From assembly GCA_913057685.1 (NCBI GenBank), contig CAJXOA010000002.1:1-64000 (forward strand): 64,000 nucleotides of DNA. The letters are read 5' to 3'. The DNA is from an uncultured Trueperaceae bacterium (GTDB lineage Bacteria; Deinococcota; Deinococci; Deinococcales; Trueperaceae). The notes under the pieces are model-generated. The model saw only the letters and a program-made list of their open reading frames with translations. It did no database searches and was not told the DNA's origin. Shown here piece after piece: positions 26,007 through 41,733 of the stretch (its first letter is position 1; every line of letters begins with the position of its first letter). A program made the translations under genes and the position numbers.

Positions 26007-26021
26007 GCCTACGAACGCATC

Positions 26022-26057
26022 GGGAGGGGACCCACGCCGACGCGTGGACCCCCTCCC
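26022..26057 (-). terminator. long hairpin ending the 26-39 kb operon
   Basis: A 16-bp stem (26022-26037 and 26042-26057) with two adjacent mismatches and a 4-nt loop begins 26 nt after the last stop codon of the operon and before the tRNA promoter. It lacks a strong T-tract. Confidence 0.55.
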
Positions 26058-26083
26058 TTCGTCGCATCTCCCGCCGCCGGGCG

Positions 26084-28714
26084 TCAGCGGTCGCGGAGGG
26101 TGCGCACGTCCATCCAGGTTGGCCGTCCCTCCGCGGCAGGCGGGGACGCGTGGACCGCCGTCACGTCGGGATCGCCGGGCGCGCGGTCGGTCAGGTTCGC
26201 GTACCAGCGGAAGTCGTCGAAGACGTCCCAGCGACGATCGCCCAACTCGACGACGCCGTCCTCCCCGACGACGCGCCATACGTGCTCGCGCGCTCCGTAG
26301 AGGCCCGCCTCCGTCCGTGTGGAGCGCACCACGACGTTCCAGCCTCGCTCGAGGCGCAGGTCGACGTCGAAGCGCACCGGTCGCGCGCGAGATGCGTCGA
26401 AGTCGTCGGGCGCAACGGTGCGCAAGAAGCACGCGTCGTTGCTCCAGCGGACGGTGCGCCCCTCGCCGACGTAGAGCCACGACACCGCGTTGCGGTGGTC
26501 CGCGTCGTCGGTCTCGAGGTGCAGGTCGGCGGCACCGACCCGCAACGGTACGTCCCCAGCGGGATCGTCCACGACCAACGCCAACGTCGCGAAGAAGGCG
26601 ACGCCGTCCTCGACGCCCGTTCGGCCGGTGCACGCCTCGAAGGCGCCGCCGCGCACCCCTTCGGTGTAGAGGCGGGCGGGGGGGAGCACCATGTCGGTGC
26701 GGGACGTCACCGACGTCGCCTCCACCCGGTTGGGGAGATCGACGTCGTACCCGCGGCGCTCGAGAGGGGTCACCACGGGCGTCGGGAGTTCGGCGTCGGA
26801 GCCCTCGACGCGGACCTCGAGGCGCACGTCGTGATCGTGGAGGAGGTTCAGCGGGCAGTCGGCGTCGGGGCCGCACGCGAAGAAGCGCGGACGGACCGTG
26901 TCGCGCGACGAACCGCCGTCCAGACCGCCCTGGCGATCGATCGCCTCGAGCGCGCGCTCGTTCGTCTCCACCCGCCAGTACAGCTCCGAACCGGAGACGT
27001 CGGGGTGCCCCGCGTCGGTCGTCCACAGGACGTCGGTGACCGCTGCGTCGCGGGCCGGGCCGGTCGTCGCGCGCGGCTGCGCGACGTGGAACACCGCGTT
27101 CCAGCCCTCACGAAGGTCGAGGTCGTACGTCGTCGACGCCAACGCGCCCGTCGTATAGGTGCAGTTCTGAGGGGTGTCGGTCGCGACCGTGAAGGCGCGC
27201 GGCAACCACCACCAGACGACCGACACCGGACCGTGCGTCAGGTGCGCGTTCCCGCGGTAGAGCGGGTCCCCTTCGTCGGTATCGCCGTAGACGTCCAGGA
27301 GGGCGGGGAGGTACGTGGGGTCGGCGATCGACGGGGCGATCTCGCGATCGCACACCGCCCTCGGCTCGTGGTCGGGATCGAGCGGGGACGTCGTCATGCC
27401 GTTCGTCGCGAACGTCCGCAACTGCCCAGCGGTCGGGGCCGGGTCGAGCGGCAGGTCGACGGCGAACCCGTACGCGTCGTCGGCCGTGACGGCGACGAGG
27501 TCGCCCACCCCCGCGGGCGGCGCCCCCGTCTCGACGTCGCTGGCCAACGACGGCTGGATGCGCAGGGGGCGCGACCAGGGGGCCTCGACGTCGCCGCCCG
27601 GCGTGCGCGGGAGCGCCAGGTGCCCGCGCATGCCTCCCGCGGTCACGGCGTCCGCCGTCACCTGCGGGACGTCGCCGAGGAACTCGTCGTCGTCGTCGCC
27701 GCGCATCAGCGCGAAGGCGCGACCGACGGGCCCGTCGATACGGGTGACGCGCGTCCGGGTGCGGCCGTCGGCGGCATCCTGGAACGCGAACGCGGCGAGG
27801 TTCCAGCCCGCCTCGAGGGACAGGTCGAAGGTGAGTTCGCTGCCTTCGAACCCGGGCGCCGGGCTGCAGCGTTCCGTCCCGGTCACCTCGACCGGACCGT
27901 CGGCGTAGAGCCACACCACCAACCGGTCGTGGTCGCGTTCGTAAAGGTACACCTCGCCCAACCGCGTCGTCTCGTTGTCGTCGTCGGTGGTGGACGCCTC
28001 GAGGACGAGGTCGTTGGCGCGCACGCGGGGGTCGCTGATCTCGATGTCGCTCAGGTCGCACGATGCCTGTCCGAGGGTGAAGCCCTCGACGACCGTCCCG
28101 ATCCGGAGCAGGTCCGACGCGTCGAGGCGACGGGGCAGCGGAAGGGTGAAGGTGCGGTCGGTGACCGACGTCGTCGCGACGGTTGCGCGCTCGAGGCGCA
28201 CGCCGTCGGCGTCGAGTCGGTCGACCGCGCCGTCCAGCGCCCACGTGCCCTCGGTGCGCAGGGTGCCCTGGGGGTAGCCCGACAACGCACCGCAGGCGGC
28301 CAGGTCGCCGTCGGTGCACGGGGGGACGTACGCCACGTCGAGCGACGCCGCCCCGCCGTACGTCAGGACGACGTCGCGTTCGACGGGGTCCGGGAGGAAC
28401 CGGCCTGCGTCACCCGCATCGACCGTCCGTGCGCGGACGGTGGCGGTCCCGACCGGGAGGCGGAGGGTGGTCTCCGTTCCGTCGAGGGGCGTGACGGTCC
28501 CGTCGGGCGCGACGATGTCGATGGCCGGTGCAACCCCGTCGGGCAGGCCGGTCGTGCGCACCGTGAGCTGCGTGCTCGTCGCGTCGGGCGCCGACGTGCA
28601 GGCGGTGAGGAGCGCTGCGGCGAGGAGGCCGGCCGCTGCGAGGCGGAGGGGGCGTAGGCGCGACGCGCCGCGGTGCGAGTCCGATCGTCCGACGTTCGTT
28701 CGCTCCACGCTCAT
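26084..28714 (-). CDS. large exported lipoprotein, last gene of the coupled operon
   Basis: An 876-residue predicted lipoprotein of unknown function. The N-terminus has Arg residues, a hydrophobic stretch and lipobox LLTAC (Cys about 39). At least three internal modules end in a recurring strand motif with GWN: SLEAGWNLAAFAF, DLREGWNAVFHVA and RLERGWNVVVRST, so the protein looks like repeated beta-sandwich units. Scattered cysteines (for example FFACGPDADC and PPCTDGDLAACG) suggest disulfides outside the cytoplasm. The ATG overlaps the stop of the previous lipoprotein gene (ATGA). I do not recognise the family. Confidence 0.85.
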   Translation of the reverse strand: MSVERTNVGRSDSHRGASRLRPLRLAAAGLLAAALLTACTSAPDATSTQLTVRTTGLPDGVAPAIDIVAPDGTVTPLDGTETTLRLPVGTATVRARTVDAGDAGRFLPDPVERDVVLTYGGAASLDVAYVPPCTDGDLAACGALSGYPQGTLRTEGTWALDGAVDRLDADGVRLERATVATTSVTDRTFTLPLPRRLDASDLLRIGTVVEGFTLGQASCDLSDIEISDPRVRANDLVLEASTTDDDNETTRLGEVYLYERDHDRLVVWLYADGPVEVTGTERCSPAPGFEGSELTFDLSLEAGWNLAAFAFQDAADGRTRTRVTRIDGPVGRAFALMRGDDDDEFLGDVPQVTADAVTAGGMRGHLALPRTPGGDVEAPWSRPLRIQPSLASDVETGAPPAGVGDLVAVTADDAYGFAVDLPLDPAPTAGQLRTFATNGMTTSPLDPDHEPRAVCDREIAPSIADPTYLPALLDVYGDTDEGDPLYRGNAHLTHGPVSVVWWWLPRAFTVATDTPQNCTYTTGALASTTYDLDLREGWNAVFHVAQPRATTGPARDAAVTDVLWTTDAGHPDVSGSELYWRVETNERALEAIDRQGGLDGGSSRDTVRPRFFACGPDADCPLNLLHDHDVRLEVRVEGSDAELPTPVVTPLERRGYDVDLPNRVEATSVTSRTDMVLPPARLYTEGVRGGAFEACTGRTGVEDGVAFFATLALVVDDPAGDVPLRVGAADLHLETDDADHRNAVSWLYVGEGRTVRWSNDACFLRTVAPDDFDASRARPVRFDVDLRLERGWNVVVRSTRTEAGLYGAREHVWRVVGEDGVVELGDRRWDVFDDFRWYANLTDRAPGDPDVTAVHASPPAAEGRPTWMDVRTLRDR

Positions 28715-30420
28715 TCCTCCCACCCCCACAGGTCGTCCAGGACGACGACGCCCGCCTCGGCGGGGAGGGTGCGGACGGGTGCGTCGAGCATGACGTCCTC
28801 GCCGAGGTCGAACGTGCAGCGGAGCGATACGGCGTCGGGCGGAGCGAAGAGGCGGAGGGCGTACCGACCGTCGTCGTTCGCGCGGGTGAGGGCGTACGGA
28901 CCGTCGGTGCACCGGACGTGCACGTCGGTCGTCGGGACGCCGTTGACGTAGGCGTGCCCGAGGACCGTGACGACGTCGAGGGCGACCGGTTCACCGTCCG
29001 ACCCGAACGCGAGGTCCAGGACGGGCGTGACGCCGCCGGCGAAGTCGCAGGTGGCGGGGTGGGCGTAACAGGCGTCGGTGATCACGGGATCGACCTCCAG
29101 AAGGTCCGGCACGGTCGTCGGGTCGGCGACCGCCAGCGGTTTCGCAAGGCGGGTCGTGGCGGCGTACCGCACGACGCCCACCTCGGTCGAGGACACGCGC
29201 GCCACGCCGAGGTCCCCCGCAGCGTGCGCCGCGTCGTCGACGCCCCCCTCCAGGTCCAGCAGGAGGGCGGAGGCGAACGGGTCGTCGGCGAGCGTGGCCA
29301 GGTGGTCGGCCACCCACCCCGGTGCGCCCTCCGCCGGCGCATCGAGGAGGCGATCGGCGACGTCGAAGGTCAGGGCGACGTCGTGGCTCGCGAACGTCCG
29401 ATCCGGTGCGCCGCACGCCAGCAACGCCGGACGGAAGGTGCCCTCGGCGTCGACGAACGGACCGTCGGCCTCGGGAATGGCGGTGAGGGCGGCGGCCTCC
29501 GCGTCGTGCACGGTCATGCCCCCGTCGTGGTCGCTCTTGCGGAGTTCGCCGAGATCGACGACGCGAGGCCACTGACGATCGTCGAACGCCCCGTCGGTCG
29601 TGCGCACCGACGCAGGGGAACCGGACGCCACGCCGGGTGGACGGTAGTCGACGAGGAGGGGGCGCGTCTCGCGCGTCCGCAGGAGACCGTCGGCGTCGGC
29701 CTGCGCGTCACCGACCCCGATCGGTTCGATGCACACGTACGGCGTCTCGGCGGCGACCGTCTCGCTCGCGTGCGCCGCTCGGGCGCGGACGAGGGCGAGC
29801 GGCGGCGCGGCGTCCAACGTCGCGGCGTCGAGCAGCAGATCGAGACGGAACCGACCCGCCTCGTCGACGACGTCGTCGGCGAGAACGACGCCGTCACCGT
29901 CGATCGCCACCAGGTACTCGTCGGTCGTCGACGTCGTGACGCGCTCGAGCGCGCGGCCGGCCGTCAGGTCGTCGCGGACCAGGCGGCCCTGGAGGACGTA
30001 GCGCCCGAGGACGTCGACGTCGATGCGGTAACGCGCGTAGGGGCGAGTCGCGTCGGCGTCCGCGAAGGCGGCGACGACGACGGCGTCCCGCGCCGGAATC
30101 GCGTCGGGGGCCGCGCGGAGGGTGACGTCGAGGGTCGTCGCCCCCGCGCGCGCGACGCCGACCGTCAGGTCGGGGGAGGGCGCTTCGGGTCGAAGGACCG
30201 CGCCGGCGGGGACGGAGGCCACCTCCACGGTCGTGGTGGTTTCGGTGCCCGCCCCCACGCGGAGGGGGGCGTCCGCGACCGCTTCGGCGGGCGGTGGGCC
30301 GCCGCACCCGGCGAGCGCCACGAGGGCCAGCGCCGACGCGAGGGCGACGGCGACGCGAGGGCGGAGGCGGCGACGGTCGGAGGGGCGGAGGCGTGGGGGA
30401 GACGTCGGTCGTCGCGGCAT
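28711..30420 (-). CDS. exported lipoprotein in the coupled operon
   Basis: A 569-residue predicted lipoprotein of unknown function. The signal peptide VALASALALVALAGCGG ends in lipobox LAGC. The mature part is beta-rich and acidic. It has cysteine-containing segments (VCIEPIG, CYAHPATCDF, VRCTDGPY, LRCTFDL) and a C-terminal domain resembling a carboxypeptidase-regulatory or Ig-like fold (VLGHAYVNGVPTTDVHVRC). Its ATG shares one base with the stop of the methyltransferase gene (TGATG), and it overlaps the next gene by four. The paired lipoproteins probably act together at the cell surface. Confidence 0.84.
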   Translation of the reverse strand: MPRRPTSPPRLRPSDRRRLRPRVAVALASALALVALAGCGGPPPAEAVADAPLRVGAGTETTTTVEVASVPAGAVLRPEAPSPDLTVGVARAGATTLDVTLRAAPDAIPARDAVVVAAFADADATRPYARYRIDVDVLGRYVLQGRLVRDDLTAGRALERVTTSTTDEYLVAIDGDGVVLADDVVDEAGRFRLDLLLDAATLDAAPPLALVRARAAHASETVAAETPYVCIEPIGVGDAQADADGLLRTRETRPLLVDYRPPGVASGSPASVRTTDGAFDDRQWPRVVDLGELRKSDHDGGMTVHDAEAAALTAIPEADGPFVDAEGTFRPALLACGAPDRTFASHDVALTFDVADRLLDAPAEGAPGWVADHLATLADDPFASALLLDLEGGVDDAAHAAGDLGVARVSSTEVGVVRYAATTRLAKPLAVADPTTVPDLLEVDPVITDACYAHPATCDFAGGVTPVLDLAFGSDGEPVALDVVTVLGHAYVNGVPTTDVHVRCTDGPYALTRANDDGRYALRLFAPPDAVSLRCTFDLGEDVMLDAPVRTLPAEAGVVVLDDLWGWEE

Positions 30421-32084
30421 CAGGCGCTCCTGTCGTGGACGGTGGGGGAGGTGTCGTGGTCGGCGGGCGTGGGGCGCTCGGGACGTTGCGCGCGGACCTC
30501 GAGGCAGGTGAGCGGTGGGGCGGCCGCCTCGAGGTGGTGGCGGCGCCCGAACGGCGAGAGCGGGGGGTGGAAGCCCTGGAACAGCCGTAGGTCGGCGTCC
30601 GTGGGGAGGGCGAACATCTTGCGTTGGTAGGCGTCGGTGCGGGTCACGTCGTCGAGGGTCGTGGCGTCCGCCACCGCCAGACCGGCGCGTTCGCACGCCT
30701 CGATCAGCGCGTCCCCGGACGGCGTGCGCATCGCGTACGCCTGGTCGTGCCGAGCGAGGTGTTCGCGTTGGCGGGCGTCGAGGGGGCCCGTCGTGCGGAC
30801 GATCTCCTTCAGGTACAGCGACCCGCCGGGGCGGAGGACGCGGGCGACCTCGTCCGCGACGCGGGGCAGGTCGAAGGCGTACGCGAGCGCTTCGAAGGCG
30901 TACGCGCCATCGAAGGCGTCGTCCTCGAAGGGGAGGGCGTGGAAGTCGCCCTCGACGATCTCGATGCGGTCGGTGAGGTCGGCGTCGCGGACGTACGCCC
31001 GGGCGCGCGCCACCTGCACCGGGGAGACGTTCACGCCGACGATGTGGACGTTCGGGTGGGCGCGCGCGACGTCGATCGCCGGACCGGCGAGGCCGCACCC
31101 GAGGTCCAGCAGGCGGAGCGGTCCCTCGGGAAGCGCCATGCGCGCGAACAGCCCGAGGGTCGAGGGGGTCGCGTCGTACGGGGCGTCTTCGTCCGCACCG
31201 TAGAGCGCCGCCTGGTAGGTGGCTCCGTAGGTCGCTTCGATCACGTCGGTCGTGGCGTCGTAGTACGCGCGGACGCGCCCGACGTGCGTGGAGGCGTCGG
31301 GGGTGGCCATCGCGTCGGTCGCCGGTCGGTACACCGTCACGTCCGGAGCTGCATGCGGTCCGTGGGGGTAGCGGACCTTCGCGAAGTGGATCGGTGCGTC
31401 GTCGAGCCAGGCCGCACGGTCCCCGGCGAACGAGGAGAGCGGTCCAGGGGTCGGGACGTCGATCGCGACGCCGTCGCGCTCGAGGGGGTCGACGCTCAGG
31501 TACAGCGCGTCCCCGACCTCCAGGGCGTCGGCCGCGCGACGCAGCGCGGTCGCGGTGTCGGGCGTCACGAAGCCGACGTCACCGAAGCGCGCCAGGACGT
31601 CGGCGAGGAGCGTGGTCGGGAGGCGGACGGCGATGCGCGGTCGGACGTCGTCGCCGTCGCGTTTGACGACGAGTCCCCAGTCGACGTCGGGCCGCCCGAC
31701 GAGGGGGTGGAGGCCCACCTCGACGACGGGGATGCCGGCCCGCCCGTCGTGCGCGGACAGGAACAACCGCAGGGCGGCGAGGTCGCCGTCGACCAGTTGG
31801 TAGTAGGCGTCGAGCCGCTCCGGACGACCGGGCGTGACCTTCACCCAGCGGCGGGGCTGCACCCGAAAGTGGGCGCGCATGCGGGCGTCCTGCTCCGGCC
31901 AGCCGGGCTCCGGCACGAACGCCGCGAGTGCGCCGACGTCGGCGCGGTCGACGGCGAACAGGTTCACCGAGGCGGCCGCGAAATCGAGGGAATGATTCAC
32001 CTCCGCGCGACCCAGCAGGGCCGGTGGCAGGTCGTGGAGGAACGCCTGCAGGGCGGCCGGGGGGGTCGGGGTCGCGCCCGTCAT
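30420..32084 (-). CDS. two-domain enzyme: prenyltransferase-like N-terminus, SAM methyltransferase C-terminus
   Basis: Residues about 300-500 are a class I SAM methyltransferase: motif I LLDLGCGLAGPAIDVA, then IVGVNVSPVQVARARAYV, GDFHALPFEDDAFDGAY and VARVLRPGGSLYLKE. This is closest in style to sterol C24- and tocopherol methyltransferases. Residues 1-280 are a separate domain. Its strand pattern (VDWGLVVKR, IAVRLP, ALYLSVDPLERDGVAIDV, then IHFAKVRYP, VTVYRP and HVGRVRAYYD) recalls LynF/TruF/PatF peptide prenyltransferases. That similarity is by eye only. AgeMTPT of the aeruginosamide pathway is a known methyltransferase-prenyltransferase fusion. It is 554 residues, with overlaps on both sides. 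Confidence 0.8.
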   Translation of the reverse strand: MTGATPTPPAALQAFLHDLPPALLGRAEVNHSLDFAAASVNLFAVDRADVGALAAFVPEPGWPEQDARMRAHFRVQPRRWVKVTPGRPERLDAYYQLVDGDLAALRLFLSAHDGRAGIPVVEVGLHPLVGRPDVDWGLVVKRDGDDVRPRIAVRLPTTLLADVLARFGDVGFVTPDTATALRRAADALEVGDALYLSVDPLERDGVAIDVPTPGPLSSFAGDRAAWLDDAPIHFAKVRYPHGPHAAPDVTVYRPATDAMATPDASTHVGRVRAYYDATTDVIEATYGATYQAALYGADEDAPYDATPSTLGLFARMALPEGPLRLLDLGCGLAGPAIDVARAHPNVHIVGVNVSPVQVARARAYVRDADLTDRIEIVEGDFHALPFEDDAFDGAYAFEALAYAFDLPRVADEVARVLRPGGSLYLKEIVRTTGPLDARQREHLARHDQAYAMRTPSGDALIEACERAGLAVADATTLDDVTRTDAYQRKMFALPTDADLRLFQGFHPPLSPFGRRHHLEAAAPPLTCLEVRAQRPERPTPADHDTSPTVHDRSA

Positions 32085-33052
32085 GCGCCCGTCCCCAGCG
32101 AAGGAACGCCCGCAGCCTCGCGGGCGGCGGCGCCCACGGCAAGCGCGTCGAGGTCCGCGAGGCGCGGATCGTTCGGCGCGCACGCGCGTAGGGCGTCCGC
32201 CCAACGGCGGACGGCGGGGCGCAGCGGTTCCGCGAGCACCCCGAGCGCTCGTACGGCGCCGATGGCGGCGTCGCGCTCGAGCTGGTCGGGATACGGGACG
32301 CCGCCGCCGGACCCGCTGCAGGGCGGCGCCGCAGCGGCGACGTCGAGGCGCGCCTCGAGGTAGGCCAGCGCCGCGACGCTGCGCACGCGCGCCGCCCACC
32401 CCACCAGCCAGGTGCGGGTGGGTGGGTGCTCGACGGGCGCGCCTGCGAGGGTCGCGAAGCCCGCGGCGCCGTGCGCCTCCGCCGCGCGCCGCGCGAGGGT
32501 CGGGTCGGGGCCCTGGAGCGCATCGAGGTACGCGTCGCGGAGCCCCTCCTCGCCGGGGTGGGGCGCGACGTCGGCGGGGTCGGCGCCGTGCTCGATGCGC
32601 GCGAGCGCCGCGGCGAGGCGCGTGCGGGCGGGCAGGGTCGCGAGGGGAAGGTGGCGCGCGGCGAGCGAGCGCAGGTCGGGGCGGTCGTACCGCGCGAGGG
32701 TCGCCTGCAAAAGCCCGCCGGGATCGCCCCAGCGCGCCAGCATGTCGGTTGCCGCCATCCGAACCTCGGGATCGTCGGTCTCCTCGAACACCAGCCCCAC
32801 GAGGGGGGCGGCGGTCGCGATGTCGAGGGCGTCGAGGGCGGCGAGGACCGCGCGGTCGTACGGCGTCGCGACCGACGGGTCGAACGCGTCGCTCAGGATC
32901 CCGAGGACGGTCTCCGCTTCGCCGCGCGCCAGCGCGACGGCGCCCGGGTCGTGCGTCGCGAGGGCCGCCAACGCCGCCCGGCGCGCGTACGGGTCGGCGT
33001 CGCGCAGGGTCGCGGTGAATGCGGAGGGAGTCGCGACGTGCACGGAGGTCAT
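32081..33052 (-). CDS. HEAT-like repeat protein (second of a pair)
   Basis: A 323-residue soluble alpha-helical protein, probably built of HEAT/PBS-lyase-like repeats. Paired helices include DADPYARRAALAALATHD, DDPEVRMAATDMLARWG, RPDLRSLAARHL and ARRAAEAHGAAGFATL. No catalytic residues or signal peptide are seen. Such proteins serve as scaffolds or adaptors, for instance in phycobilin lyases and modification complexes. It overlaps both neighbours by ATGA and resembles the preceding gene product in architecture but not closely in sequence. Confidence 0.75.
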   Translation of the reverse strand: MTSVHVATPSAFTATLRDADPYARRAALAALATHDPGAVALARGEAETVLGILSDAFDPSVATPYDRAVLAALDALDIATAAPLVGLVFEETDDPEVRMAATDMLARWGDPGGLLQATLARYDRPDLRSLAARHLPLATLPARTRLAAALARIEHGADPADVAPHPGEEGLRDAYLDALQGPDPTLARRAAEAHGAAGFATLAGAPVEHPPTRTWLVGWAARVRSVAALAYLEARLDVAAAAPPCSGSGGGVPYPDQLERDAAIGAVRALGVLAEPLRPAVRRWADALRACAPNDPRLADLDALAVGAAAREAAGVPSLGTGA

Positions 33053-34221
33053 GCCGCGAACCCTCGGGCGAACACCGGCTCGAGGAGGGCGTCGCGGCCG
33101 GCGTCGAGCGCCGCGCGGGCCAGCGCCAGGCGTCCCGCCTCCCCGGATGCATCCCACGCGTCGGGGTGCAGCCACGCGTCGAGGTCGCGACGGCGCGCGA
33201 CGACGTCGCCGGCGGCCGCCCGCACCTGCCACGCGGGGTCGTCGAGCGCCGCTCGCAGTGGGCCGACGTCCGCCCGGTCGGCGGCGCGCGCGACCTCCCG
33301 CCAGCCGGCGACGCGCACCTCGGTGGGGGCGCGGGGGTCGGTAGCGGCAGCCCAGGCGACGTCCCACGCACCGAGCGCGCGGACGGCGAGCGCACGCCGG
33401 CGTCCGTCGCTCGAACCCGTGTGGGGTCGGACGAGGCCGTCGTCGACCCCCAGGGCGGGGAGGCCGACGCGGGCGCAGGCGGCGAGCGCGGCGTGGACGA
33501 CGTCGGGGTCGTCGTCGTGGAGGCCGTCGGTGACGACGTCACGCTGGACGTCCAGGTCGGGCGTGGCGTTCACGTGGTCCAACCACCAGGCACGCGTGTC
33601 GGCGTCGAGGCGGCTCCAGGCGGCGCGCAGCGGGCGCCAGGCGTCGGGGAGGTGCGCCAGCAGCAGGTCGCGGGCGCCCGCCTGGAACGGGCCCTGCAGC
33701 TCGGTGGCGAGTGCTGCGACGTGCGCCGGTTCCCACGTCACGTCGAGGGGGCCGGGCAGGACGCAGCGAATCCGCAGCCGGGCGCGGACGTCGAGGGACG
33801 TATCGTGCGCGATCATGCTGGCGGCCAACCGGACGAGGTCGGGGTTGTCGGCGAACAGGGCGGCTTCCGCGAACGGACGCGCCCGGTCGGGAGCGTGCTC
33901 CGCGAGGTAGGCGAGCGCGATCATCCCCTCCTGCGTCGTGACGGTCAACGAGGCGGAGCGCAGCATCCGTTCGGTGGTGCGGGCGTCGGGCCCCAGCCCC
34001 CCGAGGGCCAGCAGGGCCAGCAGGCGCAGGGGGGCGTGGGCCTGCGTATCGATGCGCGCCAGGAGGACGTCGCGGACGTCGCGACCGTCCTCGCGCAGCG
34101 CGTCCGCCCCCGCCGGGTCCTGCTGGATGGCGTGCAGGACGTTGGCGCGCACCTGGTCGTTGCCGTCGTCGAGCGCCGCTTCGAGGTCCGCGAGGGTTCG
34201 GAGCGTCCGGGCGGCGCTCAC
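33049..34221 (-). CDS. HEAT-like repeat protein (first of a pair)
   Basis: A 390-residue soluble helical-repeat protein, GTG start overlapping the previous stop. Repeats such as LEAALDDGNDQVRANVLHAI, LRLLALLALGGLG, NPDLVRLAASMIAHD, DPDVVHAALAACARVG and DDPAWQVRAAAGDVVARR fit the HEAT pattern (Pro/Asp turn, then paired helices). Aromatic residues cluster mid-protein (AHLPDAWRPLRAAW, ADTRAWWLDHV), which could form a binding face. Function unknown; a scaffold for the neighbouring enzyme or the 400-residue protein is an inference from operon structure. Confidence 0.75.
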   Translation of the reverse strand: MSAARTLRTLADLEAALDDGNDQVRANVLHAIQQDPAGADALREDGRDVRDVLLARIDTQAHAPLRLLALLALGGLGPDARTTERMLRSASLTVTTQEGMIALAYLAEHAPDRARPFAEAALFADNPDLVRLAASMIAHDTSLDVRARLRIRCVLPGPLDVTWEPAHVAALATELQGPFQAGARDLLLAHLPDAWRPLRAAWSRLDADTRAWWLDHVNATPDLDVQRDVVTDGLHDDDPDVVHAALAACARVGLPALGVDDGLVRPHTGSSDGRRRALAVRALGAWDVAWAAATDPRAPTEVRVAGWREVARAADRADVGPLRAALDDPAWQVRAAAGDVVARRRDLDAWLHPDAWDASGEAGRLALARAALDAGRDALLEPVFARGFAA

Positions 34222-35708
34222 GTCGGCACGCCGATCACGAGGGCGCTGCTACCGTCGTCGAGGAGGGCGGTGAAGGCGAGGGTGCCGTCGCGGTCGACGT
34301 GGTGGATGAGCGTCCCCAACGTCAGCATGCTGACCGCGCGCGGGTCGCCGACCAGCGTGTCGTCGGTCGCGAGCAGGGTGCGGACCGAGACCCCGTCGAA
34401 CGCCAGGAGTTCCATCGCCGATTCGCTGCCTGCGACGACGTACGTTTCGCCCTGCGGCCCGAAGACCGGCGGGAGGAACGACTCGAGGACGTGCCCGGAG
34501 GGGCTGACGTCGCCGCTGGCGGCGAAGAGGCGACCGCCGACGTACACGCGTTGCGAGCCGTCCTCGAACTGCGCGACGCTGCCGACCGTGCCGTCCGCCG
34601 CGACGCGCGGTCCGCTCGCGAGGTCCGCGACGCCGATCGCGTCCCGGTCGCTCGACGGGGTCAGGCCGCTGCGGCGGGGGGCGGACAGCACCCGGGCGCT
34701 GCCGGTCCGCGTCGCGGTGCCCGCGAGCAGGAGACTTCCGGCGAACTCCGGGGTGGTGCCGTCGTCGTCGGGGAGGTTGGGGTCGCCGGCCAGCGCCTGC
34801 AGGGCGTACCGTCCGCCCGGTTGCAGGTCGAGGAGACCGAACCCGGAGACGACCCCGTCGACGCTGAGTCGGTCGACGTCGAACGCGGCGGCGGGGAGGA
34901 TCCCGGCGCGCTGGACGAGGCGCGCCGACGCGGCGCCCTTGCGGAGGTCCGCGACGTACCAGACGCCGTCCCCGACGTCCTGGAGGTCGGTGTCGGGGTG
35001 GGCGTACTCCAGTCCGGCGCTGAACAACAGTTCGCGTCCGCGCTTCAGGGCGGGACCGAAACCGCCGAGGATGACGTGCCCCTCGTCGGTCGGGGTGCCG
35101 GCGCGCACGATCGCCTCGGGCGCCCCGCGGGCGTCGAAGCGGTAGATCGCCGACGCGCGCCGGTAGACGAAGCCGTCGTCGGGGAGGCCCGGCAGGTCGC
35201 TGGCGGCGTCGAACTGCGCCTCGTGCACGTCGGCGTGCGCCTCGAGTGCCTCGACGGGGATGGGGTCCTCCCAGCGCAACGTCTCGTGCGCGAGGACGAC
35301 GTGACCGTCCTCGTCGACGTCGTACCCACCGACGGCAGTGGCGCGGCCGCCGTCGAAGGGATCGAGTTCGCGGACGAGGGTCCGTTCCTCACCGACGTGC
35401 GGCACGCCGTCGCGCACGTCGAGGTGGAGGCGGTGCAGCGCCAGCCGGCCCTCCTCGTCGAACGCCGTGTACGCCACCGCCCCACCGCCGATGGCGGCGT
35501 CGTAGCGCAGGTTGGCGATGCGGTGTCCGTCCGGGAGGGCGTCCCCGTCGCGCTTCACGGCGTGGAAGCGGTAGCCGTTCGGGAGTTGGATGGCGCCGCC
35601 CACGTCGCGGTCGGCGGCCGGGGAGGTCTCCACCCCGCAGGCGGCGAGGAGGCTTCCGCCCAGGACGCCGCTGGCGTACTTCAGGAAGGTCCGACGGTCG
35701 GGGCTCAC
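34218..35708 (-). CDS. Tat-type lipoprotein with repeated beta strands
   Basis: A 496-residue exported protein. The N-terminus reads DRRTFLKYASGVLGGSLLAAC: a twin-arginine motif (RRxFLK) followed by a lipobox cysteine, so it should be folded in the cytoplasm and exported by Tat. The mature part is made of recurrent strand-turn units, for example VAYTAFDEEGRLALHRL, GGYDVDEDGHVVLAHE and IVRAGTPTDEGHVILGGFG. They resemble propeller-like repeat families that report an object's state rather than known enzymes. GTG start overlapping the previous stop. No active site recognised. Confidence 0.82.
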   Translation of the reverse strand: MSPDRRTFLKYASGVLGGSLLAACGVETSPAADRDVGGAIQLPNGYRFHAVKRDGDALPDGHRIANLRYDAAIGGGAVAYTAFDEEGRLALHRLHLDVRDGVPHVGEERTLVRELDPFDGGRATAVGGYDVDEDGHVVLAHETLRWEDPIPVEALEAHADVHEAQFDAASDLPGLPDDGFVYRRASAIYRFDARGAPEAIVRAGTPTDEGHVILGGFGPALKRGRELLFSAGLEYAHPDTDLQDVGDGVWYVADLRKGAASARLVQRAGILPAAAFDVDRLSVDGVVSGFGLLDLQPGGRYALQALAGDPNLPDDDGTTPEFAGSLLLAGTATRTGSARVLSAPRRSGLTPSSDRDAIGVADLASGPRVAADGTVGSVAQFEDGSQRVYVGGRLFAASGDVSPSGHVLESFLPPVFGPQGETYVVAGSESAMELLAFDGVSVRTLLATDDTLVGDPRAVSMLTLGTLIHHVDRDGTLAFTALLDDGSSALVIGVPT

Positions 35709-36907
35709 GACGCCACCGTCTCGGGGGCGGCGAAGGTGAAGGTGGGCGCCTCGTCGGGGGTGAGGTCGGCGAGGGGGTCGGTCCTACGGTCGCTCACGCC
35801 GGCGACGGCGTCCCACGCGTTCGTCTTGCCCATGTGCGAGTACAGGTGCGCGTGGTAGCTGCCGGCCCCGAGGCGGAGGTTGTGCGACAGCTTGTCGGCG
35901 CGGAACGTGACGTTGAAGCCGCTACTGAGGACCCACAAGAGGGTCACCTTGCCGAACAGTCCCAACCCGAGCGTGACGTGCATGTCCCACGCGACGCGGA
36001 CGGCGGCCTCGCCGTTCGGGATCGTGCCGAACGGGTTCGACGTCGTGGCGGTGCCGCTCAGGGCTTCCTTGCTGCGGTTGCGGTCGACGGTGAAGAGCTT
36101 CTGCGTCTCGCCGGACTTGCGGTAGCCGAAGTGCGTGACGCGGAACGAGGTCGGGAAGACGATGGAGAACGACGGCCCCAGTTCGACGCTGCTGCCGTAC
36201 TTGGAGGCCGCGTGATTGAACGTGTTGACGTAGGGGATGAAGTTGATGAGGTTCACCCGGACGCTGTACTTCGGTTCGAGGTCGTCATTGGGATCGAACC
36301 GCCCCGCATCGACGATGTTGTAGCTCTCCGTCAAGCCGGGGATGTGCGCACCGACCGTCGCTTTGGGCGGGGTGTCGGGTCGCGGCTTGTACGTCACGAC
36401 CTTGTAGAGGATCGCGATGAGGTCGATCGTCACGTTGTGGTGGAAGTTGAAGACGCGGCCCCAATGGAACCCGGCGCTGCAGCCCCACTTGTGGCAGTGG
36501 ACGTACGGGTGCTTGATGTCGACGCGGACGCCCAGGCGGAAGGTCAGGAACACGCCGTACGTCAGTCCGGCGCTCACCGCGTCGGTCCGCACCCCGAGGT
36601 AGGCGGGGGGTTCCTCGACGTCGAGGGTGAGGGCGTCGTTCTCGATCTTCGGCGTGAAGATCATCAGGCCCGCCCAGGCGGGACCGCACATGCCGGCGGT
36701 GAAGGTGTAGGAGGCCCCCATGTGCGCGCGGAACACCGCGTGCGAGGTGCTGCCGTTCAGGAACGTGCCCGACTTGCTGTAGTTGAAGGCGTTGAAGCCG
36801 GCGTGGGCAGGCGGGAACAGCGGGCGCCCGTGACAGAGGTTGAGTTCGTCGCCTCGGTGCGCGCGGTGGCTGTAGAAGCCGGTGCTGGGGAGGGTTTCGG
36901 TGCCCAT
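35705..36907 (-). CDS. unrecognised 400-residue beta-rich protein, first gene of the coupled series
   Basis: I know no family for this protein. It has no signal peptide or clear transmembrane helix. It is unusually rich in aromatic residues, His, Asn and Lys for this genome (GFNAFNYSKSGTFLNGSTSH, YVHCHKWGCSAGFHWGRVF, WDMHVTLGLGLFGKVTLLW). Alternating hydrophobic strands suggest a beta-barrel, beta-sandwich or self-assembling shell protein. Its four cysteines include a CHKWGC pair. The ATG has AAAGGA 6-7 nt upstream, the only gene of the seven with an independent ribosome site, so it may be made in excess. Candidate structural component or modification substrate. Confidence 0.85.
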   Translation of the reverse strand: MGTETLPSTGFYSHRAHRGDELNLCHGRPLFPPAHAGFNAFNYSKSGTFLNGSTSHAVFRAHMGASYTFTAGMCGPAWAGLMIFTPKIENDALTLDVEEPPAYLGVRTDAVSAGLTYGVFLTFRLGVRVDIKHPYVHCHKWGCSAGFHWGRVFNFHHNVTIDLIAILYKVVTYKPRPDTPPKATVGAHIPGLTESYNIVDAGRFDPNDDLEPKYSVRVNLINFIPYVNTFNHAASKYGSSVELGPSFSIVFPTSFRVTHFGYRKSGETQKLFTVDRNRSKEALSGTATTSNPFGTIPNGEAAVRVAWDMHVTLGLGLFGKVTLLWVLSSGFNVTFRADKLSHNLRLGAGSYHAHLYSHMGKTNAWDAVAGVSDRRTDPLADLTPDEAPTFTFAAPETVAS

Positions 36908-36990
36908 GGAGGTCCTTTCCAAAACGGGTGGGGAACGGGGGACGGGGCGGGGCGAGGAACGGGTGCGGCGGGACGGAATGGGGCGTGGGT
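36908..36990 (-). promoter_or_regulatory. C-rich, G-poor intercistronic RNA, possible rut site
   Basis: The 83 nt between the protease stop and the next ATG read, on the transcript strand, as a C-rich pyrimidine ladder. In the first 66 nt after the stop codon I count about 42 C, 10 G, 9 T and 5 A. Such unstructured C>G RNA is what Rho binds. It could cause Rho-dependent polarity between the protease and the seven-gene series. The AAAGGA ribosome site closes the segment. Confidence 0.4.
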
Positions 36991-39072
36991 TCAGGGCCGG
37001 GCGGATCGCAGTGGGACGGGGGCGTCCGGCGGGTCGCGCACGTCGAGGCAGGCAGGGAGCTGGGGCAGGTGCCACCCCGTGAGGGTGGGGGGAACGGGGT
37101 CGGGCAGGACGACGGGGACCTGCACCGTCCCGTCGGGGGCCGTGCACGCAGGGACGGCTGGAGCGGGGGTGACGCTGAGGGTCCACCGTTCGCCGGGCCG
37201 CCCGTCGCGGTGCGGACTGGCGAGGCGCCAGGCGCCGGTGGCGGTCGCGACCGTTCCCGCCCGCTCGGGGAGGTCGGCCCGGGTCGGGGGTGGCGTCCAC
37301 CGGACCGTCGCCGGCGGCGGGGCGTCGCGACCGGTGGTCAGGTGGACCGTCGCGTGGGCCGTCCCGCGGTCGCTCTCGACGGCCAGCGCGACGGGATGGC
37401 GGCCGGCGCGCCCGTCGGTGCGCAGCCGGTCGGCGTCGATGCCGACGACGAACGTCGTGGCGGCGCCCGCCGGTACGCGCGCGGGACCGAAGCGACGCAC
37501 GGTGACGAACGGCGGTTCGGGGGTGGGGTCGTCGACCGTGAGTGCGTCGGGCCCGACGTTCCAGACGTCGAGGCGGACGGCGGCCGTCGCGGTCGAGCGG
37601 TCGGGGACGTGCACGACCAGCGGGGGCGTGTCGGCCGACGCGTCGGCGACGGCGGCCGCGAATCGGGCGGGGTGAAGGACCGGCGTGGTGCACGTCCCCG
37701 CGTCGGGACGGGTGGGGCGGCAGGGCGCGAAGGTGACGTCGCTCGACGCCCGCAGGGCCGCGTACACGCCGGCCGTGTCGAGGGACGGGTACGTTGCGCG
37801 CGCCCGGGCGATCCACGCCGCGACGTACGGCGTCGCCATCGAGGTGCCGTACAGCGCAGCGTAGGTGGGGATCCCCGCCGCGGTCGCGTGGGGCGCGAGG
37901 ATCCCGCGCTCCGCCGTACCTCCGGGCGCGTAGACGTCCGCGCCCCGCTGGGTGTACGCCGTGGCGCGCCCCACGTCGTCCGTCGCCCCGACCGACACGA
38001 CGGTCGGACAGGCGGCGGGGAGGGCCGGTTCGGCGTGACCGTCGTTGCCGGCGGCCGCGACCACGACCGCGCCGCGCCGGGCGACGGCGGCGAACAGATC
38101 CGCGAGGGGGGCGTCGTCCCCCCGGCAGTCGCCGTCCGCCGCCAGGCTGATCGAGACGACGTCGGCGGGGGCCGGGTTGGGGGGTGCACCGGGAACGTCG
38201 AGCCCGACCGCCCACTGGACCGCCGCCAGCATCGCGGCGAGCGTCGCGGTTCCGTCCTCGTCGAACACGCGAATCGGGAGGAGGCGGGCGGCGGCGTCCA
38301 CGCCGCGCCCCCCGAGGCCGTCGTCGGCGCAGGCGCCGGCGATGCCGGCGACGTGGGTTCCGTGGAACGAGGCGTGCGGCCCCGGGGGTTCGACGGCGCC
38401 CGCGGCGTGACGCACTGCGCCGTCGCGTTCGACGAAGGTCGCGCCAGGAAGGACGCGACCGCACGCGAGGTCGGGGTGGTACGCCCCCGGTCGCGCGGGG
38501 TCGGCGACGAGGCCGGTGTCGATCACCGCCAGCGTGACGTCGGCGGCGCCGGGCAGCGCGCCGTCCAGGCGGCCGGCGTCCCAGCGGGCGTCGGGGTCAC
38601 CGGTCAGGTGCCACTGCTCGGCGAGGCGCGGATCGCCGCCGCTCGCCGTTCGGACCGGACGGTTCGCGACGACGGCGCGCACCGACGGGTCGCGCTCGAG
38701 CGCCGCGACGGTGGCGGGGGCGGCGCTGGCGGGGAGGAGGCGGACGTGGGGCGTGCGGGCGACGCGCGACCCTCGGTCCGTCCAGGCGTCGGAGGCGGAC
38801 GGCGTCAGCCACACCAGGACCCCCGCTCCGGTCGGAGCACCGGTCGCGGGGGTCGCTACGGGGGTGGCGTCGGCGGTGGCGGCGTCGTGGTGGGCGGCCT
38901 CGGCACGAGGGCCTGCGAGGCCCAGCGGAGCGAGGGCCCCTTCGACGGTGGCGGGCGGCGGGGTGGGCGCGCTGCAGGCGGAGGCAACGAGAAGGACGAC
39001 GGCGGCGACGGCGCACGTCGTGGCGCGGCGATACCCGAACTTCGTCGTGACGGGGGCTTCGTGGCGCACCAC
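36991..39072 (-). CDS. subtilisin-like serine protease lipoprotein (peptidase S8)
   Basis: A 693-residue exported protease. The signal peptide AVAAVVLLVASAC ends in a lipobox cysteine. A prodomain-like region (about residues 75-140) is followed by the S8 domain: catalytic Asp in LAVIDTGLV, His in HGTHVAGIAG, oxyanion Asn in AAAGNDG, and Ser in YGTSMATPYVAAW. A 250-residue C-terminal region contains Ig/NEW3-like beta segments and paired cysteines. The GTG start has GGAGG upstream. It precedes the seven-gene coupled series on the same strand and may process its exported products. Confidence 0.92.
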   Translation of the reverse strand: MVRHEAPVTTKFGYRRATTCAVAAVVLLVASACSAPTPPPATVEGALAPLGLAGPRAEAAHHDAATADATPVATPATGAPTGAGVLVWLTPSASDAWTDRGSRVARTPHVRLLPASAAPATVAALERDPSVRAVVANRPVRTASGGDPRLAEQWHLTGDPDARWDAGRLDGALPGAADVTLAVIDTGLVADPARPGAYHPDLACGRVLPGATFVERDGAVRHAAGAVEPPGPHASFHGTHVAGIAGACADDGLGGRGVDAAARLLPIRVFDEDGTATLAAMLAAVQWAVGLDVPGAPPNPAPADVVSISLAADGDCRGDDAPLADLFAAVARRGAVVVAAAGNDGHAEPALPAACPTVVSVGATDDVGRATAYTQRGADVYAPGGTAERGILAPHATAAGIPTYAALYGTSMATPYVAAWIARARATYPSLDTAGVYAALRASSDVTFAPCRPTRPDAGTCTTPVLHPARFAAAVADASADTPPLVVHVPDRSTATAAVRLDVWNVGPDALTVDDPTPEPPFVTVRRFGPARVPAGAATTFVVGIDADRLRTDGRAGRHPVALAVESDRGTAHATVHLTTGRDAPPPATVRWTPPPTRADLPERAGTVATATGAWRLASPHRDGRPGERWTLSVTPAPAVPACTAPDGTVQVPVVLPDPVPPTLTGWHLPQLPACLDVRDPPDAPVPLRSARP

Positions 39073-39142: not shown

Positions 39143-39174
39143 GTGATACCACGACCGTTTCCAGACCATGTCAA
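39143..39174 (-). promoter_or_regulatory. promoter upstream of the protease and coupled operon
   Basis: A perfect TTGACA (39174-39169) is followed by TGGTAT at 17 bp, or an extended-type TGGTATCAC at 20 bp, on the minus strand. The -10 box is therefore weak or badly spaced, as often seen in activated promoters. It lies between the NUDIX stop and the protease start. Confidence 0.5.
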
Positions 39175-39235: not shown

Positions 39236-39712
39236 TTACGACGCGGCGGTCTCCCGCAACGCCAGGTCGCACCACGCCCGCATCTCCGCGTCGAGCTCGA
39301 GGCGCGCGAGGGCGTCGGCATCGAACCAACCGAGCGACGGGTCGTCCTCCGCGCGGGGCAGCGCCCCGTCGTACGGCGCGACCGGCCGCGCGAAGTAGAT
39401 CAGGTCCACGTGCTCGTGGCCGGGCGCGATCCCCTCGAGCTGGATGCCGCGCGGCCGCAGGAGCTGCCGAGGGCCGGGCGCGTCGATCGCGCGTTCGCCG
39501 AGCAGCTCGACGTGCACGCCGGTCTCCTCGAGCACCTCGCGGACGGCGGCGTCGTCGGGCAGTTCGTCGAGCTCGACGTGCCCCCCCGGCGGCAACCAAC
39601 GCTGCAGTTTCGCGTGGTGGTGCAGCAGGATGCGGCCCTCCCACACGACGAACGCGGTGGCGCACCAGTCGCGGGTGGGTGGGGCGCCCGCGGGGGCGGG
39701 CGGACGGCTCAC
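39236..39712 (-). CDS. NUDIX hydrolase
   Basis: A 158-residue NUDIX protein. The full Nudix box is present from about residue 52: G-x5-E-x7-R-E-V-L-E-E-T-G, beginning GGHVELDE. Residues before it ([25 protein letters not shown]) fit the family core, and [11 protein letters not shown] and LGWFDADAL lie after. The substrate is not predictable; such enzymes hydrolyse nucleoside diphosphate derivatives. The GTG start overlaps the miaB stop (GTGA). Confidence 0.9.
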
Positions 39713-41043
39713 GAGGCGACGGCCAACGGGATGGCGGTCGCGTCGCGGCCCGCGACGGTGCCGTACAGGGTGTGCGGCGTCGCCTGCGTGACCTCGACGT
39801 CGTGCAGCCCGAGGCGGGTGACCTGGTCCTTGGGGACGAGCACCGTGTGGTTCTGGTCGCTGTGCCCCATCGCGTAGTCCCCCTCGCGCTGGATCTCGCG
39901 GATGAGGACGCGGGCGCGCCGCCCGATCCACCGCCGGTTCGCGTCGAAGGCGTAGCGCTTCTGCAGGTCGATGAGGCGCTGCAGGCGCGCGATCTTCGTC
40001 TCGCGCGGCAGATCCTCGAAGTGCTCGGCGCTGGGCGTGCCGGGCCGCGCGGAGTACGCGAACATGTAGGCGTGCTCGTAGCCGACCTCCTCGAACAGCG
40101 AGAGGGTCGCCTCGAAATCCTCGTCGGTTTCGCCCGGGAAGCCGACGATCACGTCGGTGCTGAGGACGACGTCGTCGACCTTCGCGCGGATCTCGCGGAC
40201 GATGTCGAGGTAGCGCTCGCGGCGGTACTCGCGCGCCATCCGGCGGAGCACCCGGTCGCTGCCCGACTGTACGGGCAGGTGGATGTAGTTCGCGACGTTG
40301 GGTTCCTCCGCGATCGCGTCGATGACGTCGCTACTGAAGTTCATCGGGTGGCTGGTCGTGAACTTCACGCGGGGGATGCCGACCTGCGCGACGCGCCGCA
40401 ACAACTCCGCGAAGCTCGGGAGGTCGTCGTCCTTCAGGCCGTAACTGTTGACGTTCTGCCCCAACAGCACGACCTCCTGGACGCCCGCGTCGCGCATCGC
40501 CTCCGCTTCGGCGAGGATGGCGTCCACGGGGCGGGACACCTCCGGCCCGCGGGTGGTCGGCACGATGCAGTAGGTGCAGTGGTGGTCGCACCCCCGCATG
40601 ATCGTCAGGAACCCGGTCAGGGCGTCGGGTGCGGGGGGGATGAGGGTGTCGAGGTCGGTCTTGAAGCGCAGGCTCTCGTAGCGCTCCCGGCCGGCATCGA
40701 CCGCCTTCAGGGCGTCGTGCACGTCGGTGATGGCGCCGGGCCCGAGGAGGACGTCCACCTCGAACTTCCGCGCGATCTCCTGGCCCTCCTCGAGCTGCGC
40801 GAGGCAGCCCATCATGCCGACCGTCAGGTCGCGGCCGGCGCGCTTCGCCTTGCGGAACTCGCCGAGCAACGACACGACCTTCTCGACCGGTTTGCCGCGC
40901 ACCGCGCAGGTGTTGATCAGGATCAGGTTCGCGTCGTCGGGGTGATCCACCAGGTGGTGCCCGCCCGCGACGAGTTCCGAGCGGATCGTGTGCGTGTCGT
41001 ACTCGTTCATTTGGCAGCCGTAGGTGATGACGTGGGCGCGCAC
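39709..41043 (-). CDS. miaB: tRNA-2-methylthio-N6-dimethylallyladenosine synthase
   Basis: Radical SAM methylthiotransferase acting on tRNA adenosine 37. The 444-residue protein has three N-terminal cluster cysteines ([26 protein letters not shown]), then the radical SAM motif CDHHCTYC in [47 protein letters not shown] and [15 protein letters not shown]-terminal TRAM domain follows ([11 protein letters not shown]...). The GTG start has GGGAGG upstream and a -10 box TATCCT about 50 nt away. No miaA in the window. Confidence 0.95.
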
Positions 41044-41096: not shown

Positions 41097-41117
41097 GCAG
41101 ACGGTGCGTCCGCCCGC

Positions 41118-41327
41118 TCAGCCGACGGCCAACAGCCGCGGCAGTCCCCAGGCGACCAGGACCAGCACGAAACTCACGATCCCCCCGAGGAACCCGTACG
41201 CCCAGAGGCGCGGGACCGCCTTCGCGACCGGGGGCGCCGCCGACGCCGCGACCGCCAGGGTGCTCGCGAGGAACAACCAGGCGGCGAACGCGATGAGGCC
41301 CTGCCAGGTGGGATCCGCTTCGTTCAC
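41118..41327 (-). CDS. small two-helix membrane protein
   Basis: A 69-residue protein with two predicted transmembrane helices ([20 protein letters not shown] and [20 protein letters not shown]) joined by a short basic loop. No known family. The GTG start lies 7 nt after TAGGGT without a ribosome site, so it is probably leaderless. It is divergent from the ATL gene, with overlapping promoter DNA of only about 35 bp. Confidence 0.6.
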
Positions 41328-41334
41328 GGCCCCG

Positions 41335-41358
41335 ACCCTACCCCAGGCGCGCTACCCT
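41335..41358. promoter_or_regulatory. back-to-back leaderless -10 boxes
   Basis: TAGGGT on the minus strand (41340-41335) lies 7 nt before the small membrane protein GTG. TACCCT on the plus strand (41353-41358) lies 6 nt before the ATL GTG. Neither has a clear -35 box. Confidence 0.45.
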
Positions 41359-41364
41359 GCCGCC

Positions 41365-41733
41365 GTGTCCCCCGACCCCGTCGACCCGCACGGCGCCGCC
41401 CGCGCCGCCCCCGAGGTGCCCGCCCCGGCGCTCGGGACCTTCCGCGCGGCGGTCGGCACGGTCGTGCGGCGGATCCCGCCCGGGTCGGTCGCCAGCTACG
41501 GCGACGTCGCGGCGTGGGCCGGGCGGCCCGGCGCCGCTCGGCAGGTCGGTGCGGCGTTGCGCGGCCTCGCCGCGGACGACCCCACCTTCCCCTGGCACCG
41601 GGTCGTGAACGCGCGCGGGGAGATCCGGACGTGGGCGCTCGGGGCGGGGGAGCTGCAGGTGGCGCTCCTCCAGCGCGAGGGCGTGACGGTCGAGCGGGGA
41701 CGCGTCGATCTGGCGCGGCACCGCGTCGCCTGA
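41365..41733 (+). CDS. alkyltransferase-like protein (ATL)
   Basis: A 122-residue relative of O6-alkylguanine-DNA alkyltransferase that binds alkylated guanine but cannot repair it. The domain core IPPGSVASYGDVAAWAGRPGAARQVGAALRG contains the DNA-binding helix, and the active-site cysteine of PCHRV is replaced by Trp in FPWHRVVNARGEI. ATL proteins hand lesions to nucleotide excision repair. Length and sequence fit stand-alone ATLs such as those of Thermus. The GTG start is probably leaderless; a later start would cut into the domain. Confidence 0.9.
   Translation: MSPDPVDPHGAARAAPEVPAPALGTFRAAVGTVVRRIPPGSVASYGDVAAWAGRPGAARQVGAALRGLAADDPTFPWHRVVNARGEIRTWALGAGELQVALLQREGVTVERGRVDLARHRVA

Follow-up and report, generated by a model that had tools for sequence, protein, structure and literature searches.

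A conserved, undescribed gene system around an orphan protein in Trueperaceae

Do seven genes joined end to end by short overlaps form a functional system, and which of their products make up its core? The question is raised by a stretch of 64,000 nucleotides (the window; positions 1 to 64,000 of contig CAJXOA010000002.1, assembly GCA_913057685.1) from the 2.29 Mb genome (G000) of an uncultured Trueperaceae bacterium (Deinococcota), in which the genes lie on the minus strand behind a gene for a subtilisin-like protease. An earlier note, made from the sequence alone, had proposed that they form a joint, undescribed system that modifies a protein or peptide and then displays it at the cell surface. 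The operon does belong to a real, undescribed and conserved gene system built around an orphan core protein, P1, whose neighbourhood is kept in another genus (genome G081) and in another family (G007). Modification followed by display is plausible but unproven, and the modification part is confined to the genus of the window.

Organization of the operon

The seven genes run from 36907 to 26084. All six junctions are overlaps, of 4, 4, 4, 4, 1 and 4 bases (GTGA, GTGA, ATGA, ATGA, TGATG and ATGA in order from P1 to P7), in exact agreement with the coordinates and overlaps first reported. The S8 protease gene lies 83 bases upstream of this run, giving a set of eight genes:

36991..39072, minus strand: S8 (subtilisin-like) protease lipoprotein, 693 amino acids (lipobox ASAC; Pfam Peptidase_S8)
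35705..36907, minus strand: P1, orphan-family protein, 400 amino acids (relatives found by profile in G105, G107, G007 and G081)
34218..35708, minus strand: P2, twin-arginine translocation (Tat) lipoprotein, 496 amino acids (DRRTFLK, lipobox LAAC)
33049..34221, minus strand: P3, HEAT-repeat protein without signal peptide, 390 amino acids (Pfam HEAT, E 2e-5)
32081..33052, minus strand: P4, second, diverged HEAT-like protein, 323 amino acids (HEAT_2, E 0.009)
30420..32084, minus strand: P5, fusion of a predicted ABBA-fold prenyltransferase-like domain and a class I S-adenosylmethionine (SAM) methyltransferase (AlphaFold2 (AF2)/Foldseek, Pfam)
28711..30420, minus strand: P6, lipoprotein, 569 amino acids (lipobox LAGC)
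26084..28714, minus strand: P7, lipoprotein with three GWN repeats, 876 amino acids (lipobox LTAC)

Lipoprotein signals are carried by four of the eight products (the S8 protease, P2, P6 and P7), P2 combining its own with a Tat motif. The Tat lipoprotein and the two large lipoproteins predicted from the letters are thus seen among the seven. The protease does precede them, its description as secreted being refined to that of a lipoprotein.

Distribution and recurring core

Of 111 Deinococcota genomes five carry P1: that of the window, its congeners G105 and G107, G081, which belongs to a different genus in the family, and G007, which represents a different family in the order and has 55% GC around the module. 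The G081 genes form a run of S8 lipoprotein, Tat lipoprotein, P1 and HEAT protein (L042, 9705 to 3428), and those of G007 a run of four coding for a GWN lipoprotein, the Tat lipoprotein, P1 and the HEAT protein (L029, 15419 to 9354). The P1 and HEAT genes overlap by ATGA in both. Identity to the window proteins is 33% (G007) and 28% (G081) for P2, and about 20% (G007; 18% in a four-row alignment) and about 26% (G081) for P1. Since P1, P2 and a HEAT protein are clustered in all five P1-bearing genomes, these three constitute the core; the S8 protease accompanies them in four of the five, as does P7.

The P2 profile finds clear relatives in the same five genomes exclusively. Full-length relatives of P7 are restricted to G105, G107 and G007, and in G007 the P7 gene precedes that of P2; single domains of P7 are common in the phylum. 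The amino-terminal domain of P5 was seen only in the genus of the window in searches of the phylum, and P4 and P6 likewise only there among the fetched loci, which makes modification an accessory to the system and not its central part. P5 is accordingly a lineage-specific addition to the core. The neighbourhood check suggested earlier is borne out for P1, the Tat lipoprotein and the HEAT protein, which stay clustered in the other genus and the other family. The expected co-occurrence of P1 with the fusion enzyme and a HEAT pair stands for P1 and HEAT but fails for P5 and P4, both seen in the window genus only.

Weak matches elsewhere in the phylum (G018, G077, G032 and G083) were dropped because their neighbourhoods differ, and G074 because none of the operon proteins matched there. 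Large BTAD/NB-ARC/TPR (SARP-like) regulators lie on either side of the G007 module (L029, 6247-9216 and 15725-18712); regulators of this kind are often linked with control of secondary metabolites. A literature search on Trueperaceae gene clusters returned nothing relevant.

Conservation within the genus

In G105 and G107 the operon has the same gene order and genomic place as in the window; the G105 contig starts inside the S8 gene, and the G107 operon is distributed over two contigs (C110, from miaB to mid-P2, and C44, from P2 to the tRNA group). G105 proteins are 66-91% identical to those of the window, and G107 proteins 43-72%. Overlaps are present at 18 of 18 junctions (six in each of the three species), several of which swap GTGA for ATGA or vice versa. 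Ratios of nonsynonymous to synonymous substitution (dN/dS, Nei-Gojobori) against G105 range from 0.13 (P2) to 0.36 (P4 and P5), indicating purifying selection on all genes compared. The low dN/dS, together with overlaps kept despite codon changes, shows that selection maintains both the proteins and their coupling, and the operon genes are not chance open reading frames (ORFs).

The same site also exists without the operon. In the congener G106, miaB, NUDIX, Sbt, the tRNA-Pro-Gly-Arg group and TPR genes adjoin with no operon between them (L067, G106:C37, 5615-9755); the Sbt transporter gene stands before the tRNA group there, versus after it in the window. In G104 (80% complete) P1 is absent and the corresponding site was not located. 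Another variable element of this region is a large FG-GAP-repeat lipoprotein gene between two tRNA groups (window 20876-23419), present in G105 and G107 and unmatched in G106, where tRNA-His directly follows TPR.

The core proteins and their accompanying lipoproteins

P1 has no match in Pfam, NCBIfam, PHROGs, PADLOC or PDB, and displays neither a signal peptide nor a clear transmembrane segment. Its relatives were sought in viral contigs, plasmids and phages and none was found there. Residues 133-148 form an insert rich in histidine and cysteine, of which H133, H137, C138, H139, C143 and H148 are invariant in the three species; it could be a putative metal site, is confined to the window genus and is missing from the distant members. 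The AF2 model of P1, built from three rows, is unusable (predicted local distance difference test score, pLDDT, 34), and it was therefore not taken into a fold search. An internal duplication in P1 was considered and is unsupported by hhalign, and profile comparison shows P1 and P2 to be unrelated.

In every lineage P2 carries a classical Tat motif and a lipobox, and it matches TIGR05002 (NxxGxxAF repeats) weakly, at E 0.064, far below the cut-off. The HEAT repeats of P3 are above the Pfam cut-off, and P3 has relatives in G007 and G081. P4 falls below the curated cut-off and its similarity to P3 is distant (hhalign E 0.002, probability 14%), so that of the two HEAT-like proteins announced earlier P3 is upheld and P4 stays short of the threshold.

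The S8 protease has the catalytic triad motifs D/H/S (DTG, HGTH and GTSMATP; Peptidase_S8 E 1e-32), and relatives occupy the corresponding position in G107 (44-46% identity) and a place beside the core module in G081 (33%). P6 has no family match. In P7 a repeat about 95 residues long, ending in GWN, occurs three times, and in its G007 relative four times; the repeat model was built from those same copies, so that its scores are not independent, and no Pfam model covers the region. Other Deinococcota have short, free-standing ORFs of about 226-285 amino acids that match the GWN region.

The fusion enzyme P5

P5 combines an ABBA-like prenyltransferase domain (residues 1 to about 265) with a class I SAM methyltransferase domain (about 266-500). 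The AF2 model of residues 1-283, of fair quality and computed from three sequences (pLDDT 76; predicted template modelling score, pTM, 0.77), consists of serial helix-strand-strand-helix units. The best 24 Foldseek matches of this domain in the PDB are all ABBA aromatic prenyltransferases: FgaPT2 (E 9e-4, probability 1.00) and also IptA, AtaPT, DMATS1, CdpNPT, AmbP1, CloQ and FamD1. With template modelling (TM) scores of about 0.5 and identities of 6-15% these matches support an ABBA aromatic prenyltransferase fold as the prediction for this domain, not a subfamily or an activity. K82, K141, R150, R154, Y195, K236, R238 and Y252, located on several predicted strands, are invariant in the three species; such basic and tyrosine residues fit a putative diphosphate-binding role. 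The carboxyl-terminal domain matches Methyltransf_11 (E 3e-19) and resembles sarcosine/dimethylglycine and UbiE-type enzymes. The early guess of a prenyltransferase/methyltransferase fusion was thus right, by predicted fold for one half and by Pfam for the other. The amino-terminal domain was searched for in plasmids and viral contigs and not found there.

Boundaries of the operon

The operon is bracketed by two candidate signals:

39146..39174, minus strand: promoter-like site (TTGACA 39174-39169, 17-base spacer, TGGTAT 39151-39146)
26017..26066, minus strand: strong closing hairpin, directly ahead of a promoter-like TTGACA and tRNA-Pro

The promoter proposed ahead of the protease gene keeps its perfect -35 hexamer, TTGACA, but the -10 sequence TGGTAT is poor and a scan for consensus promoters does not list the site at 39174. 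The strong hairpin said to close the set is real by a shuffle test (z = -2.8; equally stable in 2 of 200 shuffles), though it has no T run and the scan gave no terminator-like site there. Hairpins of different sequence occupy the matching position in G105 and G107. The tRNA Pro-Gly-Arg group lies 3' of the hairpin in the window. Elsewhere in the window (41098-41733) is an ORF with the DNA-binding domain of 6-O-methylguanine DNA methyltransferase; that domain alone matched, and the protein is possibly alkyltransferase-like.

Interpretation and alternative explanations

The operon is very probably one functional unit. Gene overlap is common in compact bacterial genomes and the adjacent NUDIX and miaB genes overlap too (39709-39742), as would be expected if the operon were a compact-genome string of independent genes with no joint function. 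That explanation is nevertheless highly improbable because the genes for P1, P2 and HEAT form a cluster in each of three genera, which span two families, and were never found apart. Even less credit is given to an anti-phage defence or conflict module, patchily gained and lost at a tRNA-side island. The patchy distribution, the one site with and without the operon beside a tRNA cluster, the orphan protein and the HEAT proteins speak for it; against this, the PADLOC models match only the methyltransferase domain of P5, no nuclease, NTPase or toxin domain was found, and half of the products are exported lipoproteins.

The other two alternatives turn on P5. This enzyme might modify a small aromatic compound of indole, tryptophan or quinone type, the remaining genes being an unrelated envelope operon that P5 has joined. 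The Foldseek matches FgaPT2, IptA, CloQ and AmbP1 act on free small aromatics, which agrees with the sarcosine/dimethylglycine- and UbiE-like methyltransferase domain and with the confinement of the amino-terminal domain to one genus. Yet in three species the P5 gene is joined by translational coupling to both of its neighbours, and the operon has no scaffold-making enzyme, leaving this explanation rather unlikely. A cluster resembling those of ribosomally synthesized and post-translationally modified peptides (RiPPs) is unlikely as well. There, P5 would prenylate the amino terminus and methylate the carboxyl terminus of a short peptide, matured by the S8 protease, with the lipoproteins serving export or immunity. 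The model is offered by linear cyanobactins (aeruginosamide and viridisamide clusters), in which the bimodular AgeMTPT has methyltransferase and prenyltransferase on one polypeptide (PMC4663559). The S8 domain weakly matches PatA/PatG (E 2e-9), and the two BTAD-type regulators around the G007 module point the same way. But the gaps of the operon in three species hold no conserved short ORF of precursor size, the entire genome yields no match to the F-family prenyltransferase model TIGR04445 at E <= 10, and no F-family chain is among the 50 Foldseek matches listed. The protease, moreover, is an exported lipoprotein; among NCBIfam models it fits mycosin best, and its score with the PatA model is 37 bits where the cut-off is 421 (the search for PatA/PatG was limited to this operon protein). 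In addition, the core occurs without P5. As there is neither a TIGR04445 match nor a precursor ORF in the operon, it is not classed as a member of the cyanobactin pathway; judged by its sequence, it is not a cyanobactin cluster.

The overall best explanation, still tentative, is that of one transcriptional and translational unit which builds a cell-envelope assembly. That P1 takes part in such an assembly as cargo or partner is possible, a little short of an even chance. The HEAT proteins are of cytoplasmic type and P5 is cytoplasmic, to judge from signal sequences, while the four lipoproteins carry export signals. The HEAT protein would act as partner or chaperone of P1 during its folding in the cytoplasm, coupled translation fixing the ratio of the two. 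P2, exported folded via Tat and possibly taking P1 along, would be anchored in the envelope together with P7 and the protease, and the S8 protease, acting outside, may trim or activate the assembly. The window genus would have gained P4, P6 and P5, the last prenylating and methylating a single substrate of the assembly, either P1 or an undiscovered peptide. Action of P5 on a product of the operon is doubtful.

Several points weigh against the envelope assembly. P1 has no signal of its own, and a physical complex, the export of P1 and a substrate of P5 are all putative. The order of the core genes varies among lineages, so that a fixed order is non-essential, and the fusion enzyme is absent from G007 and G081, so that the core functions without it. 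All relatives found are from Deinococcota, other phyla having been covered by a low-sensitivity peptide-pattern scan alone. In its fullest form the proposal is of a new envelope system in which a signal-less protein has a dedicated HEAT chaperone, is carried out by the Tat lipoprotein, is trimmed by the subtilase and, in one genus, is also prenylated and methylated by the fusion enzyme; taken as a whole this is improbable.

The locus offers a clearly delimited set of genes, backed by evolutionary conservation and centred on an orphan family, that gives biochemistry something to test, and the recurring core of P1, Tat lipoprotein and HEAT protein opens the function of P1 to ordinary genetics. 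An ABBA prenyltransferase-methyltransferase fusion in a Deinococcota lipoprotein operon that has no RiPP precursor would broaden the reach of this chemistry, either to proteins or to a new product class. If P1 is indeed prenylated and methylated, bacteria would have an equivalent of the CaaX-type prenylation and methylation of proteins.

Comparison with known systems

P5, an unusual fusion with an enzyme of a known superfamily, is the sole part of the system that can be placed; the core has no known kind with which to be compared. With the ABBA/DMATS prenyltransferases (FgaPT2, IptA, CdpNPT, AmbP1 and CloQ) P5 shares five predicted alpha-beta-beta-alpha units, and it differs from them in being fused to a methyltransferase. 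The S8 protease has the full domain and catalytic motifs of secreted S8 subtilases but is lipoprotein-anchored and tied to an orphan operon. P2 resembles the NxxGxxAF-type Tat lipoproteins in its twin-arginine motif, lipobox and weak TIGR05002 match, and is set apart by its constant clustering with P1. The linear cyanobactins have in common with the Trueperaceae operon a prenyltransferase and a methyltransferase on one polypeptide, assigned in P5 by fold and profile, and a subtilase gene in the same cluster. They differ in that the operon protease is exported, the host phylum is not Cyanobacteria and the prenyltransferase domain of P5 is amino-terminal, the name AgeMTPT suggesting the opposite domain order.
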